A stretch of DNA of 64,000 bases. It comes from Marine Group II euryarchaeote MED-G37 (GTDB lineage: Archaea; Thermoplasmatota; Poseidoniia; Poseidoniales; Thalassarchaeaceae). The stretch is taken from the NCBI GenBank assembly GCA_002457555.1, contig NTJQ01000001.1, positions 1-64,000 on the forward strand, in the 5' to 3' direction. A program made the translations under genes and the position numbers. Positions 16,371 through 22,568 of the stretch are shown in pieces. The notes under the pieces were generated by a model. It saw nothing but the letters and a program-made list of their open reading frames with translations. It made no database searches and was not told where the DNA came from. Numbering within the stretch: position 1 is the first letter of the stretch; each line of letters opens with the position of its first letter.

Positions 16371-17198
16371 TCATGCTTGGCGTCGCCTGCGCTCGTAGGC
16401 CTCTCGTTCCAAACCAGTAAATTTAGCAGGTAAAATCAAGCAATGTATTCGCCCACCTGTTAATTTCGCTATATCTTCTAAATCCCCAGACGCTACTCTT
16501 TGGTCAGAAGTTCCGAGATCACTGAGCAGAACCGCATCCCAATTTGTAATTGCAGTAGTCATACTCTCCCTCACTCCCCCCTCGTGTTCAACGAGTTTCT
16601 CAAACATCGCTTGTAGGGTTTCAACCGCTTGTTTTGGTTGCATAGGTTGGGGGGTTTCAACACCCATCCCTGTCGGGTCCAAATCTAACAAAACCAAGGT
16701 ATGCAGATTGTTTGTGTAATTTGAATCAATCATCTCCAAAGGAGAGGTAGGAAGGTATTCGCCATAAGCGAAAGGAAGTGTTACTTGTCGCCCAAATCGA
16801 TATGATTGCAGACCGGATAATGAAATTGCCATAGAAGTCGCTGACAGACCTGGGATTACAGAGAAATCGATGCCTTGCTCGGCACAATGCGATTCTAAAT
16901 CGACATGGGTCGTCGCTTGCATAGGGTCACCGACAACTAACAAAGCAACCGAATTCTCATTCGCTAGGGATAAAATCTCGGCGGGGTCTTCGACCATGGG
17001 TCGCATTGCCTTTTTCCATTTCCCAACCAAACCCTCTAACCGGTCTTCTTGATCGCCTGGTAAGGTTGCAGTATACCCTTCTAGAAATCGGAAGTCACAA
17101 GCTCTAGCATGCTCTATGGCATCGGCCGTCATCAACCCAAGGTCACCTGGTCCAAGGCCGATTAGCCAGAGACCCGGAGGGAGCCCGCCGTCCGTCAT
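16371..17198 (-). CDS. dph5: Diphthine synthase
   Basis: A SAM-dependent methyltransferase of the tetrapyrrole-methylase fold that methylates the modified histidine of elongation factor 2 on the way to diphthamide. The opening LWLIGLGPGDLGLMTADAI, the FLEGYTATLP segment (family: YAEFYT), VALLVVGDPMQATTH and the hydrophobic IPGLSATSMAI are clear. I chose the methionine at 17198 (MTDGGLPPG) because an earlier start at 17234 would overlap the divergent trm5 start. The length is then ~275 residues, close to the archaeal norm of ~260. One oddity is the charged C-terminal tail LEREAYERRRRQA. Confidence 0.93.
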   Translation of the reverse strand: MTDGGLPPGLWLIGLGPGDLGLMTADAIEHARACDFRFLEGYTATLPGDQEDRLEGLVGKWKKAMRPMVEDPAEILSLANENSVALLVVGDPMQATTHVDLESHCAEQGIDFSVIPGLSATSMAISLSGLQSYRFGRQVTLPFAYGEYLPTSPLEMIDSNYTNNLHTLVLLDLDPTGMGVETPQPMQPKQAVETLQAMFEKLVEHEGGVRESMTTAITNWDAVLLSDLGTSDQRVASGDLEDIAKLTGGRIHCLILPAKFTGLEREAYERRRRQA

Positions 17199-17232
17199 GG
17201 TGAAGCGGGGGGTGTGCCTGCCCGTCATCAAC

Positions 17233-18417
17233 ATGATGCGCCACTTGGTCGTTCCAAATCGCGAAGTCGAGGCTGTTTTAGGCCACGTTCGGGCCCGAGG
17301 ATGGAGTTCTCTGAGCCATCGAGTATTCTCTAGCGAAGATGGGCACTCTCGCCTAATTCCCTTGGATACCGGCGCCCCTCTAGAACTACCAGCAGCCTTA
17401 GAATATCCAATTGAGATGCATGAAGGAGTGCCCGATGAAAAAATAGAGACAGATTGGCTTTCTCTTCTCGCTTCCGAAGTAAGCCAACAGACAATACAAG
17501 AATTGGGGGAATCTTGGCCATCAAATCACGAGTTTGTAGGCGATATGATGATTGTCAGAATAGACGATAAAGTCGCTCAATTTACGGATTCTATTGCAAG
17601 AGCAAAACTCGGAGCACACCCTCACATTCGCTTACTATTAGCCGATTATGGAGTAGAAGGCGAATTCAGAATCAGACAACTGAAGCCCATAGGTGCTAGG
17701 TTAGCGGACAGGGTTCTAGCCGGCCCCAGCCTAGAATTTGCTCCCCCAGAACTCCTTACCACAGAGGTTGCAGTGAAGGAAAGTGGACGCATTATTCGAT
17801 GCGATCCTACGAAAGCATACTTCTCCACCAAATTACAAACAGAAAGACTCGAAACTCTCGCCCTAGCCAAGGAATTACGAGAAGAAATAGGTGGTCCCTT
17901 GAGAGTTGCAGACCCCTTTTGTGGAGTCGGCCCCGCTCTCGCAACCTTACTCGCCGAGGCCGATTTAGTCTCCGATTTACTCGCCACCGACCTCAACCCT
18001 GATGCGGTTAAACTACTCATGTCAAACCTCTCGAAGTGGGATAGAAGAACATATCCAGAAGGCGCAATCGAACTTCAGCGTATTCACGAAAATAGACTAG
18101 TTGGAATGGCCAATGCACTAACCTTAGGCAATGATTCGGAGTTCGCCGGTAAATGGGATTTAGTATTAGTCAACTTACCTCATCGTACGATAGAATTCCT
18201 GCCTGCAATTATTCCACTACTAGACCGAACATCTCCTTCAATGATTAGAGGCAGAGTAATTGTAGAGGAATCAGAAATTGAGCAGGTAAATCAAACCATA
18301 CACGCGATTCTTCCCGATTTGATGCCGGCCAAACCGCAACCCTCTCTCAAAATCAAGCGCGATTACAGCGCATCTCTGCGCCTATGCTCATTTCAGGCTT
18401 GGATAGCATCGGAATAA
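17233..18417 (+). CDS. trm5: tRNA (guanine-37-N1)-methyltransferase Trm5-like
   Basis: ~394 residues. The C-terminal two thirds carry a class I SAM methyltransferase fold: a strand-turn DPFCGVGPALATLL motif for SAM, an acidic LATDLNPDAV motif and NLPHRTIEFLP. This is the Trm5/TYW2 arrangement, in which NLP(P) and a downstream FL are diagnostic. The preceding EVAVKESGRIIRCDPTKAYFSTKL corresponds to the conserved strand and Tyr-Phe-Ser segment of Trm5. The enzyme prevents +1 frameshifting by making m1G37. Two overlapping ATG codons (17233, 17236) are possible starts. It is divergent from dph5, with only ~34 bases between starts, so both messages are probably leaderless or nearly so. Confidence 0.88.
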   Translation: MMRHLVVPNREVEAVLGHVRARGWSSLSHRVFSSEDGHSRLIPLDTGAPLELPAALEYPIEMHEGVPDEKIETDWLSLLASEVSQQTIQELGESWPSNHEFVGDMMIVRIDDKVAQFTDSIARAKLGAHPHIRLLLADYGVEGEFRIRQLKPIGARLADRVLAGPSLEFAPPELLTTEVAVKESGRIIRCDPTKAYFSTKLQTERLETLALAKELREEIGGPLRVADPFCGVGPALATLLAEADLVSDLLATDLNPDAVKLLMSNLSKWDRRTYPEGAIELQRIHENRLVGMANALTLGNDSEFAGKWDLVLVNLPHRTIEFLPAIIPLLDRTSPSMIRGRVIVEESEIEQVNQTIHAILPDLMPAKPQPSLKIKRDYSASLRLCSFQAWIASE

Positions 18418-18446
18418 ATCAAATTCCGATACCGTACCCGCGAGCC

Positions 18447-19484
18447 ATGAAAATCGACCCAAAGAGCCGTCCATTACAAATTGCAGTCGCTCTGATGCTT
18501 TTCCTCCCTACACTCTATCTCGGTCTAGGGTATGTTATCGCATCACAAGCAATAGCCGCAAAGCCAGGATGTTACGTTTGGGAGGACAATCACCCAGATT
18601 CCTGGACGTCTTTCGATGATTGGGAGTCTTTTGGAACCGGAGAGGTTGCAGAAGAGAGAGTAGCCATTAGGCAAAACTTCGATGCTAGCCCGTACCAAAT
18701 GGAATCCTATGAAAATGCAAGCTTCCCGCCCAGAGGAGACGACCAATCGATTACCCTCAGGGGATGGTATGTCGAAGTCGACCCGGAAGCACCAGTAGTT
18801 ATCTTGACCCACGGAATGCCTTCTAATGGAAATTGCAAACCAGAAATGCTACTGATGCAAGCCTTCCTTGCCGAGGGAGGCATCAATTCACTTTCCTTTA
18901 GTTTGAGGAATTACGGTTACAGCGACCAAGTCAGCGACTACATTGCGGTCGGACAGGTTGAGTATATCGACATCCTTGGCGCATATGATTGGCTAATTGA
19001 CTCCAAAGGCTACCAAGCCGGAGAAGTTGGATTGGTAGGAATCTCTCTTGGAGGAACGGCAGCATTTGCCTTTGAGGACGAGCCAGGCATTGCTGCGATG
19101 TGGCTCGATAGCGCAGTTCTTGACTTTCCGCTCGTTGTTCGAAACGAACTGGGTAGAATGGGCTTCCCTGCCTTCCTTGGAGGAGCAGCAATCACAGTTG
19201 GAGGTTGGATGGCCGGCGCCGATCTCGATGGACGAAACCCAATCCATGCAGCCGATGCCGCAGGAGATCGTCCAGTTTTCCTCACTCACGGACTCGAGGA
19301 TACCAGAGTGTCTGTTGAACACTCAGAACGATTTGAGGAGAGAATGATTGAGAATGGCGGCAATGTCGAAACTTGGTATGTCGAAGACAGGGCACACGTC
19401 GATGCGATGTGGAGCGATTCGGAAGAATACGAAAACCATCTCACTTCATTTTTCCACGATGCATTTGGTATGAATAGTAGTTAA
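18447..19484 (+). CDS. Alpha/beta hydrolase with N-terminal membrane anchor
   Basis: ~345 residues from the ATG that opens MKIDPKSRPLQIAVALMLFL. The first ~35 residues form one hydrophobic helix, so the enzyme is likely anchored with the catalytic domain outside. The oxyanion strand is VVILTHGMPSNGN, the nucleophile elbow is VGISLGGTAA, and the acid and histidine are probably in GLEDTRVS and DRAHVDAMW. It resembles esterase/lysophospholipase-like or BAAT-like hydrolases. Two cysteines (CYVWED and NCKPE) could form a disulphide. Substrate unknown. Confidence 0.88.
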   Translation: MKIDPKSRPLQIAVALMLFLPTLYLGLGYVIASQAIAAKPGCYVWEDNHPDSWTSFDDWESFGTGEVAEERVAIRQNFDASPYQMESYENASFPPRGDDQSITLRGWYVEVDPEAPVVILTHGMPSNGNCKPEMLLMQAFLAEGGINSLSFSLRNYGYSDQVSDYIAVGQVEYIDILGAYDWLIDSKGYQAGEVGLVGISLGGTAAFAFEDEPGIAAMWLDSAVLDFPLVVRNELGRMGFPAFLGGAAITVGGWMAGADLDGRNPIHAADAAGDRPVFLTHGLEDTRVSVEHSERFEERMIENGGNVETWYVEDRAHVDAMWSDSEEYENHLTSFFHDAFGMNSS

Positions 19485-19526
19485 TGACGGCACTATGTTT
19501 TTGCCTTCCTATATATCCAGGGAATC

Positions 19527-19664
19527 GTGCCAATTGACTCCATTCTGAAGTGTTTGGCTGGGGAAGCAGTGAAATCCACAGTTCGAGGAACCTTTCGAGA
19601 ACACAAGAACTACGCCGATTATGAAAAGGAAATAGCGGCTAAAATGGCGTTGATAGAATGGTAG
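19527..19664 (+). CDS. Tiny hypothetical gene, first of a three-gene cassette
   Basis: A GTG-started frame of 45 codons beginning MPIDSILKCLAGEAVK and ending AAKMALIEW. The stop TAG lies inside the overlap ATGGTAG with the start of the next small gene, an arrangement typical of translational coupling. No family is recognised. The peptide is amphipathic and mixed in charge (FREHKNYADYEKEIAAK). Support comes only from the overlap and from the cassette arrangement, so confidence is moderate to low. Confidence 0.4.
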   Translation: MPIDSILKCLAGEAVKSTVRGTFREHKNYADYEKEIAAKMALIEW

Positions 19665-19912
19665 TTTTTGAAATAATTGCTGAAGCATGTTGCTCGTTTT
19701 TGTTCGTTCCCGCGGTGGAAGCAGTGAGAGAGGATTTGAAAGTGAAATCCCAAGAAACCAAATTCGTTTCAATCAACAATAATTGTTCTATTGATGGCTG
19801 TAATGCTATGAGGTATGAAGACTCGATATATTGTTTGAGGCACAAACCAAGCAAGGAATCCAAAGAAGAAACTCAGCCGGAAGAAAACTGGTGGGAAGAC
19901 CAAAAGGAGTGA
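19658..19912 (+). CDS. Small zinc-finger-like protein with WWED tail, copy 1
   Basis: 84 residues. A hydrophobic N-terminal stretch (EIIAEACCSFLFVPAVEAV) is followed by a C-x4-C-x10-C-x2-H motif (CSIDGCNAM...IYCLRH), probably one zinc site, and an acidic tail ending EENWWEDQKE. The next gene (19917-20246) has the same three parts with identical Cys/His spacing. The tails are encoded by a 60-bp block that is 59/60 identical between the copies. I know no named family with this architecture. A short membrane-tethered zinc-binding adaptor is possible, but function is unknown. Confidence 0.65.
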   Translation: MVVFEIIAEACCSFLFVPAVEAVREDLKVKSQETKFVSINNNCSIDGCNAMRYEDSIYCLRHKPSKESKEETQPEENWWEDQKE

Positions 19913-20237
19913 TATTTTGCCCTTACCTGGAATAATTGCAGAAATTTTCTGTAACATACTATTCTATGGTGCTATAGCTGCAGCCAGTGACGGAACCGGA
20001 AAGAAAACAAAAATCGATACATCATCAATTTCTATTGATTCAATCAAAGAAAAACAGCGACAAGGAAACTCATTATCTCCATCGGATCGCCAAGCCCTTA
20101 TGTCACGAACGTGTTTGCTACCTGGATGTAACATAGGTAATTTTCGAATGACAGATTATTGTCATAAACACCAAGATCACAAACCAAGCAAGGAATCCAA
20201 AGAAGAAACTCAGCCAGAAGAAAACTGGTGGGAAGAC
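19841..20237 (+). repeat. 60-bp direct repeat encoding the shared tail of two small genes
   Basis: Copies are at 19841-19900 and 20178-20237. They differ at one position only (CCGG versus CCAG), while the flanking coding sequence of the two genes has diverged strongly, including in silent positions. The block encodes HKPSKESKEETQPEENWWED. Near-identity limited to this block suggests recent gene conversion or a recently copied module. Confidence 0.95.
19905..19919 (+). promoter_or_regulatory. Shine-Dalgarno element deciding a TTG start
   Basis: AAGGAGTG overlaps the stop of the upstream small gene and lies about seven bases before TTG at 19917. It is the best argument for a TTG start of the second zinc-finger-like gene and for re-initiation after the first. 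Confidence 0.55.
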
Positions 20238-20246
20238 GAGAATTAG
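19917..20246 (+). CDS. Small zinc-finger-like protein with WWED tail, copy 2
   Basis: 109 residues, TTG start. The opening PGIIAEIFCNILFYGAIAAA parallels copy 1 (EIIAEACCSFLF). A longer polar linker (residues ~25-65) follows, then C-x4-C-x10-C-x2-H (CLLPGCNIG...DYCHKH), then the tail ending EENWWEDEN. Its TAG stop at 20244-20246 touches the 3' CCA end of the convergent tRNA-Asp gene with no spacer. Paralogy with copy 1 is clear from shared order, spacing and tail. I cannot assign a function. The zinc-knuckle spacing resembles C-x4-C...YC-x2-H knuckles seen in some phage and mobile-element proteins, but this is only a resemblance. Confidence 0.65.
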   Translation: MPLPGIIAEIFCNILFYGAIAAASDGTGKKTKIDTSSISIDSIKEKQRQGNSLSPSDRQALMSRTCLLPGCNIGNFRMTDYCHKHQDHKPSKESKEETQPEENWWEDEN

Positions 20247-20322
20247 TGGCGCCCCGACCGGGATTTGAACCCGGGTCGAAGCCTCGACAGGGCTTCATGA
20301 TAGGCCACTACACCATCGGGGC
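20247..20322 (-). tRNA. tRNA-Asp (anticodon GTC)
   Basis: The cloverleaf folds on the minus strand: acceptor GCCCCGA pairs with TCGGGGC, the anticodon stem AAGCC/GGCTT closes a seven-base loop CTGTCGA with anticodon GTC, and the T arm contains GGTTCAAATCC. The discriminator is G, as expected for tRNA-Asp. The CCA end is encoded (20247-20249). No intron. The CCA touches the stop codon of the convergent gene. Confidence 0.97.
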
Positions 20323-20456: not shown

Positions 20457-21041
20457 ATGAGCGAGCCCCGCATTGTCATCGACGTAATCGACAACGGCGG
20501 CCAATGGACACATCGAGAATGGCGTATGCTACGTTACATGGGGGTCGACACCCAGATTCTTTCTAACAACACACCGATTACTGAACTTCGCGAATTAGAC
20601 GGACTGATTCTTTCAGGCGGCGCCGCCCGTGTTGGATTAACAGGAGAATTAGGTAATTGTGCAGCCTATCTTGGACTAGACATTCCAATTTTAGGAATCT
20701 GCGCCGGCCATCAATTCATGGCCGGTCATTATGGCGGCCGAGCGGCTGAAGCGCCCGCACCTGAGTTTGGTGCTGCGACAATCAATCTCATCGATGGCGG
20801 CGGGCCATTATTCGACGGAACTCCGGAATCTCAGACTGTATGGGAGAGCCATAACGACGAGGTCACGGAATTGCCCGAGGGGTTCAGAATTACTGCTAGT
20901 AGTGAATCATGTGAAATTCAGGCTATGGAGAACTCAACATTAGACCGATTTGGATTACAATTTCACCCAGAAGTGAATGACTCCGAGTACGGTTCAAATA
21001 TTTTTCAGAACTTTGTAGATATCTGCCGCAGGGCCCTTTAG
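20457..21041 (+). CDS. guaA: GMP synthase glutamine amidotransferase subunit
   Basis: 194 residues, the size of the stand-alone archaeal glutaminase subunit of GMP synthase, which passes ammonia to a separate ATP-pyrophosphatase subunit. The triad of class I glutamine amidotransferases is visible: nucleophile Cys in ILGICAGHQFMAG, and His and Glu in QFHPEVNDSE. The first strand IDVIDNGGQWTHREWRMLR is typical. Bacteria fuse both halves, so the split form supports an archaeal host. The synthetase subunit is not in this window. Confidence 0.94.
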   Translation: MSEPRIVIDVIDNGGQWTHREWRMLRYMGVDTQILSNNTPITELRELDGLILSGGAARVGLTGELGNCAAYLGLDIPILGICAGHQFMAGHYGGRAAEAPAPEFGAATINLIDGGGPLFDGTPESQTVWESHNDEVTELPEGFRITASSESCEIQAMENSTLDRFGLQFHPEVNDSEYGSNIFQNFVDICRRAL

Positions 21042-21428: not shown

Positions 21429-22568
21429 GTGGCGAGCTGGCTGAGTACACATGCTCCGCGTACCTTCGACGAATTGGCAGCACCGAAAAGTGTCCGAGAA
21501 GCGCTCAAGAGCGCGAGTCTAGCTTCAGAACCCCCACATCTGCTAATCACTGGCCCGTCTGGTGTTGGAAAGACGGCCTCTTGGCGATTGGTAGCGCGTC
21601 AGATGCTTGGCCCAGGGTGGGAATCTACCACACATGTTTTGCAAGCGCGTGATTTGATGCGAACCCGTGGTGCAATGAACAAGTTCGAGGAATTCCTTAG
21701 GCCAGGAGGTTCGGGCTCATCAGATACATTAGCCGGCCGTATGAGCCTAGACGCCTATGACCGAGGAATAATTTCAGCGTCGGAAGGAGATGTAGCGCCT
21801 GCGGGTACTGAATTAGAAATCGAATCAGGTAGAATTCCAGTCAGCCGATTATTGGTGATTGAAGATGCCGATCATCTTGGAGGTATTAGACAAGCATATC
21901 TTCGTCGAATGATGGAAACAGTCGGCGTTGCTAGCAGATTCGTCCTAGTCGCTAGAGCACCTTCGCGCCTTATCGATGCAATCCGATCTAGGACCCAAAT
22001 GATTCGAATTCCCTCCACAAGCCGCGAGACTGTAATCGATACAATGCAATCAATCGCCAAATCCGAATCAATCTCAGTTGATGAAGGCGTACTAGGTGAT
22101 TTGGCCTATGTTGCCGAGGGCAATTTACGAAAAGCAATTTTCACATTAGAGATGTTACATGGACGAAAACTCACCGAGGACCGCTCTGCAGTACACCGCT
22201 TGGTTCAGGCCACAACGTTGCAAGCGGGAAGACATCTTCTGGAACTCGCACTTCGTGGCCGAGTTGTTGAATGGCGGTGGGAGAACGTTAGAGGTCGTCG
22301 TTCCAAGGTATTAGGGGGCGCAATAGCAGAGATTGATCGCCTAATGAATGACCATGGGTTAGATGCCGATGATATTATTTCACAACTCCATGATGTCCTC
22401 GTCGGCCGTCGTCTTTCACTACCCGATGAACTACGCTCAGAGTTAATCTCCGCATTGGCGATTTGTGACACTCAAATTCGCAGTACAATGCACGCCAGAA
22501 TCCCCTTTGAGAACTTTCTCCACAAGGCTGCAACCTCTGGTCGAAAGCATGGCCTTGCCTTTGGTTAA
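21429..22568 (+). CDS. Replication factor C-like AAA+ protein, divergent
   Basis: 379 residues, GTG start. The order of RFC boxes is recognisable: an N-terminal WLSTHAPRTFDELAAP (box II, W...RP), Walker A GPSGVGKTAS, Walker B LLVIEDADHLG, sensor 1 FVLVARAPSRLI, then IRSRTQMIRI, and the collar helices. Three diagnostic positions deviate: DEAD is EDAD, SRC is SRT, and sensor-1 CN is AR. There is also a long insertion between Walker A and B (~residues 80-130). It may be a non-catalytic clamp-loader subunit. Standard rfcS and rfcL are not in the window. The stop abuts tRNA-Arg. Confidence 0.75.
   Translation: MASWLSTHAPRTFDELAAPKSVREALKSASLASEPPHLLITGPSGVGKTASWRLVARQMLGPGWESTTHVLQARDLMRTRGAMNKFEEFLRPGGSGSSDTLAGRMSLDAYDRGIISASEGDVAPAGTELEIESGRIPVSRLLVIEDADHLGGIRQAYLRRMMETVGVASRFVLVARAPSRLIDAIRSRTQMIRIPSTSRETVIDTMQSIAKSESISVDEGVLGDLAYVAEGNLRKAIFTLEMLHGRKLTEDRSAVHRLVQATTLQAGRHLLELALRGRVVEWRWENVRGRRSKVLGGAIAEIDRLMNDHGLDADDIISQLHDVLVGRRLSLPDELRSELISALAICDTQIRSTMHARIPFENFLHKAATSGRKHGLAFG

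Follow-up and report, generated by a model that had tools for sequence, protein, structure and literature searches.

What are three very small open reading frames doing, lined up on one strand (19527-19664, 19658-19912 and 19917-20246) with the last stop codon directly abutting the 3' end of a tRNA-Asp gene at 20247? The window in which they lie is a stretch of 64,000 nucleotides from Marine Group II euryarchaeote MED-G37 (GCA_002457555.1, contig NTJQ01000001.1, positions 1 to 64,000), a Thalassarchaeaceae (Marine Group IIb) archaeon of the Poseidoniales, which according to PMC6461757 are unmatched in abundance among planktonic archaea of the surface ocean and have no cultured members. A preliminary description, made from the sequence alone, had proposed a three-gene cassette encoding tiny proteins of no known family, perhaps a small mobile islet. 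Direct reading of the sequence confirms the three coordinates, the ATGGTAG overlap of ORF1 and ORF2 and the Shine-Dalgarno-like GGAG ahead of the TTG start of ORF3; this TTG occupies the position of an ATG in the homologue of genome G009, both following GGAGTGA. The features are listed below, the gene names trm5, guaA, LysE and cysC having been assigned by eye here and throughout.

17116-18417, plus strand: trm5-like gene, flanking the hotspot on the left, a neighbour kept in congeners and in g8 and g9
18384-19484, plus strand: alpha/beta hydrolase gene (S9/abhydrolase; Pfam PF00326, PF00561), a variable cargo gene within the hotspot
19483-19526, plus strand: leader, beginning at the stop codon of the upstream gene and common to the ORF1 cassette that G015 carries elsewhere
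19527-19664, plus strand: ORF1, truncated relic of a membrane protein of 101-104 aa, with full-length homologues at L018, L019 and L020
19645-19657, no strand: recombination joint, with an ORF1-type cassette on its left (as in G005/G015) and an ORF2-type cassette on its right (as in G009)
19658-19912, plus strand: ORF2, 84 aa, with hydrophobic N-terminus, zinc knuckle and WWED tail; G009 homologue 88% identical
19784-19843, plus strand: ORF2 zinc knuckle, CSIDGCNAMRYEDSIYCLRH, with ligands invariant in alignments
19841-19911, plus strand: tail repeat, copy 1 (71-nt direct repeat, 93%, with identity at 59 of the first 60 nt)
19917-20246, plus strand: ORF3, 109 aa, with hydrophobic N-terminus, zinc knuckle and WWED tail, from family alignments
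20112-20171, plus strand: ORF3 zinc knuckle, CLLPGCNIGNFRMTDYCHKH, from family alignments
20178-20248, plus strand: tail repeat, copy 2, derived from ORF2 by conversion, its last two bases inside the tRNA gene
20247-20322, minus strand: tRNA-Asp(GTC), bounding the hotspot on the right; its 3' end is duplicated in G012 and G014
20457-21041, plus strand: guaA-like glutaminase subunit gene, right flank, from synteny

Terminator and sigma-70 scans of the window were uninformative, the host being an archaeon. An 18-nt inverted repeat (17519-17536 and 21642-21659, 89% complementary, 4.1 kb apart) is likely due to chance.

The site between trm5 and tRNA-Asp

A gene for a zinc-knuckle protein of the ORF2/ORF3 kind (hereafter finger gene) is found between trm5 and tRNA-Asp-guaA in congeners as well as in genera g8 and g9, and the single-cell genome AG-404-A19 has the arrangement seen in the window. 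All relatives in the genome collection searched are MGII/Poseidoniales or unranked Euryarchaeota MAG records, several of them labelled Thalassarchaeum or Thalassarchaeaceae. The gap between trm5 and the tRNA gene measures 1-20 nt in seven genomes and 1829 nt in the window, and filled sites elsewhere hold up to 5.5 kb of cassettes. Empty and occupied sites occur among close relatives, those of G013 and G015 being empty while the window and other congeners are occupied, and the contents include an ORF of about 570 aa, the hydrolase gene (missing from the site of several congeners), one to three small genes and larger membrane proteins. Compared in this way, the interval from trm5 to tRNA-Asp-guaA is by its varying contents a hotspot of cassette turnover. 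The G007 site (L182) carries a 355-aa ORF that is unrelated and runs on the opposite strand, nucleotide-sugar dehydratase-like by eye.

The presence of the cassette in some relatives and its absence from others, together with horizontal exchange and with tRNA-Asp 3' ends duplicated in G012 and G014, bears out the suspected mobility at this tRNA. The contact between the ORF3 stop and the tRNA, which had been taken as a hint of integration, is no such sign in itself, since at empty sites the trm5 stop already lies 1-20 nt away. Of the proposed small mobile islet, exchangeability stands and a single recent arrival does not: because the finger gene is a long-standing occupant in g1, g8 and g9, the cassettes at this site are best described, from their distribution, as exchangeable residents rather than as one recent islet. 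Finger genes also occur elsewhere: an ORF1-finger pair adjoins a LysE-like gene, away from the trm5 site, in G015; an ORF2-type copy, probably frameshifted, adjoins a cysC-like gene in G013; and at L157 and L162-L170, several of which belong to genus g6, some 2 kb separate the finger gene from tRNA-Ile, in place of the position beside tRNA-Asp.

Exchange and rebuilding of the cassettes

Synonymous divergence of ORF2 between the window and G009 is 0.068, against 0.59-1.38 for flanking core genes (overall 0.07-0.11 against 0.48-1.38), and that of the finger gene between G005 and G015 is 0.24, core genes being above 2 or saturated, all values coming from short genes with 22-103 synonymous sites, for the most part from MAGs. 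Many cassette genes are, between species, far below their flanking core genes in this respect, so the horizontal passage of cassette genes between species is well supported by these comparisons. The contrast is absent in the pairs G005/G011 and G011/G004, as expected if only some pairs exchanged recently.

The shared position of the finger gene in g1, g8 and g9 would also suit a vertically inherited, lineage-specific gene pair subject to loss and drift, the low synonymous divergence then reflecting constraint and not transfer. Some empty sites do look like losses, such as that of G035 (L185), where the 69 nt separating the trm5 stop from tRNA-Asp carry a scar that reads as a DDWWEA tail, apparently the remains of a gene since lost. 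Nevertheless, we regard vertical descent as quite improbable, given that the divergence contrasts rise to tenfold or more and that the pair beside LysE in G015 lies at another place, yet remains close to that of G005 when core genes are saturated.

Besides being exchanged, the cassettes are rebuilt. Homologues of ORF1 in G005, G008 and G015 reach 101-104 aa and end in a C-terminal hydrophobic helix, so ORF1 is, by comparison, only the first 40 or so codons of a membrane protein, a truncated relic and no member of a gene set; the reading as a coherent three-gene cassette fails on this account. The DNA left of about 19645 matches the ORF1 genes of G005/G015, and that right of about 19657 matches the start region of the G009 ORF2 gene. 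As these matches indicate, recombination joining an ORF1-type to an ORF2-type cassette took away the second half of ORF1, with the ATGGTAG overlap as a side effect of this joint.

The opposite end of the cassette tells of a second event. The ORF3 finger is 87-90% identical to those of congeners and its tail only 63-65%, whereas the same tail is 98% identical to that of ORF2. This pattern identifies the ORF3 tail as a recent gene conversion from ORF2, so that the near-identity of the two tails is a conversion product and not inherited similarity. Such conversion has been seen once, other tail pairs within one genome being only 53-73% identical. In addition, the last codons track position rather than gene: an ORF2-type gene ends in DEKE and a stop when internal (G009) and in DGN and a stop directly at the tRNA when terminal (G006), and more generally DEKE is found inside and DEN or DGN next to the tRNA, which suggests crossover inside the tail.

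Footprints at the tRNA end are found in two relatives. In G012 (L032), a 465-nt insert with an ORF for a 130-aa membrane protein lies between the copies of a 23-nt direct repeat near the finger-gene stop and tRNA-Asp, 7 nt of this repeat belonging to tRNA-Asp, and G014 repeats 10 nt of the tRNA-Asp end; a repeat search of the window found no duplicated tRNA-Asp 3' end, as previously described. These duplications, the empty and filled sites and the finger genes near tRNA-Ile would be in keeping with an integrative element of the conventional kind, or what is left of one, inserted at tRNA-Asp by a tyrosine recombinase of its own or one acting in trans and carrying the finger proteins as cargo. 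We consider such an element unlikely. A search for tyrosine recombinases (PF00589) in ten congeneric genomes gave one match in nine of them and three in G014, the only one in the window genome being on contig C20 and not at the site. Inspection of ORFs at the site revealed no integrase gene, and an element with its own integrase was accordingly rejected. The window has no tRNA-end repeat, those of G012 and G014 are short, and neither viral scans with A4, ORF2, the G005 finger protein and ORF1 nor a phage search with ORF2 returned a match, no viral carrier of the cassettes being found in these scans.

Variable genomic islands linked to tRNA genes (flexible genomic islands, tycheposons) occupy sites at tRNA 3' ends, show empty/filled polymorphism and carry horizontally exchanged cargo. 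The window site resembles them in all three respects, and short tRNA-end duplications exist in two relatives. It differs in that no integrase gene was seen there, in that each unit comprises a single very small gene or a few of them, and in that exchange apparently also proceeds through shared gene tails. Recombination at shared ends, whichever enzyme acts, is well supported by these patterns as the means of exchange.

Rapid turnover of small membrane proteins at tRNA sites is typical of anti-virus or superinfection-exclusion cargo, and the cassettes could be such cargo of a variable island. However, no PADLOC model matched, by which a known defence-system protein was rejected, and no known defence gene was recognised among the neighbouring ORFs inspected; we deem this function as improbable as vertical descent.

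The zinc-knuckle/WWED proteins

ORF2 and ORF3 share the C-x4-C-x10-C-x2-H spacing and the WWED tail, in agreement with their earlier description as paralogous zinc-finger/WWED proteins. All four zinc ligands are invariant, and WWE is invariant or nearly so, in alignments of 24 and 25 members, which were chosen partly by motif; separate profile searches gave matches in 86 of the 293 genomes of Poseidoniales, mostly Thalassarchaeaceae. Because the ligands are invariant and independent profile searches find the family widely, a chance origin of the ligand pattern is excluded, and the proteins are putative zinc binders. At the scale of the phylum, 37 of 39 matches fall within Poseidoniales and the other two are marginal, so that the family appears essentially limited to this order, mostly to Thalassarchaeaceae.

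The canonical protein has 90-110 aa, with a hydrophobic start, the finger, an acidic linker and an NWWE[DE] end. The hydrophobic starts of the two larger ORFs (Kyte-Doolittle 19-residue maxima of 2.05 and 1.81) suggest that the proteins are probably membrane-bound, by a segment that may be transmembrane or else amphipathic. The finger is also N-terminal in larger proteins with 1-4 TM segments, some of which carry WW between finger and TM (NWWEEQ in L257, SWWTDQ in L258); as this pairing recurs, finger and WW seem to behave as a unit. In G005-type genes, dN/dS over finger and tail is 0.13-0.32, and the value of 0.73 for ORF2 derives from only 13 changes, too few to be read as its own constraint.

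Current databases hold no annotation for the family: searches of Pfam, NCBIfam, PHROGs, PADLOC and PDB returned no family for the ORF2/ORF3 finger proteins, as the preliminary description had supposed, and literature searches yielded nothing on it. An AlphaFold model has low confidence (pLDDT 64), and a PDB fold search with it was empty at any useful E-value. Nine of 18 family members show weak similarity to the zinc knuckle of an HNH endonuclease (phrog_144, best E 0.0022); unlike it, the finger proteins, of about 90-110 aa, combine the knuckle with membrane segments and a tail that is acidic and contains WW. This identity was rejected, the HNH catalytic domain being absent and ORF2 and ORF3 having no HNH match in Pfam or NCBIfam. 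Two of the 18 show weak similarity to Zf_WRKY19 (PF24906), with a best E of 0.12, which is non-significant, misses the Pfam cut-off and comes without WRKY context, so that this identity was also rejected.

An 18-nt leader, YGCCGTAGRCARACTTAT, occurs with 0-1 mismatch once per genome in 9 of 11 genomes, each copy preceding a finger gene, which in G166 lies at a different locus; in G108 an N-run lies between the two. The small finger proteins might therefore be DNA-binding autoregulators of their own leader. This is the least probable of the readings weighed here: the leader closes with ACTTAT, which resembles an archaeal TATA box and sits about 25 nt ahead of the start codon; its first bases overlap the last trm5 codons at the trm5 site; the window's own copy is degenerate; and the finger protein looks membrane-bound. 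From the position of ACTTAT, the leader may instead be a promoter to which a further specific element is added.

WW[ED][ED] sites outside the trm5/tRNA-Asp hotspot were also checked. The pattern stands within 15 residues of the C-terminus in three other families with predicted TM segments (L107; L110, L114 and L129; L140) and near the start in two others (L120, L145). A general C-terminal tag is thereby suggested; it stays suggestive because many other sites are internal in ordinary proteins. Proteins at L064 and L066 have EWWEDEDGTWYFRTPD-like ends, another acidic Trp-rich C-terminus of Poseidoniales. L109, on contig C21 of the window genome (51500-54500), encodes a 275-aa protein with predicted TM segments, kept in congeners, in which DEWWEEGY precedes a different Cys/His cluster (CGHPGC...CKQH).

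Proposed mechanism and significance

Genome comparison shows the window as one state of an exchangeable cassette site, whose cassettes encode lineage-restricted zinc-knuckle proteins; the content of the cassettes varies from one close relative to another, and recombination rebuilds them as they pass between species. In the window, the comparisons trace a cut in ORF1 that put its remainder next to ORF2, and a transfer of the ORF2 tail sequence to ORF3 by gene conversion. Exchange would proceed by homologous recombination at shared ends, namely the leader, the WWED tail DNA and the tRNA-Asp 3' end, a route that we infer because no integrase gene is seen at the site. The hydrophobic N-terminal helix would insert into the membrane, the zinc knuckle and the acidic WWE[DE] motif would face the cytosol and together dock on a common partner, and the variable membrane part would set where, or with which membrane protein, this partner is recruited. 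Such a membrane-tethered adaptor is, from the architecture of the proteins, moderately supported at best. Taken together, the exchangeable site, its rebuilding by recombination and the tethered finger/WWE[DE] adaptor have, in our judgement, slightly better than an even chance of being right.

A wider form of this account is possible but doubtful: finger and WWE[DE] might be a lineage-wide docking module by which many unrelated Poseidoniales membrane proteins reach one cytosolic partner, the tail DNA doubling as the crossover point for swapping membrane parts at the tRNA hotspot. The site offers a testable example of streamlined archaea swapping small genes one at a time, no mobile element being visible, and brings to notice a zinc-knuckle family left unannotated by current libraries. 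Should the combination of finger and WWED serve as a docking tag, it would point to a partner common to many Poseidoniales membrane proteins.
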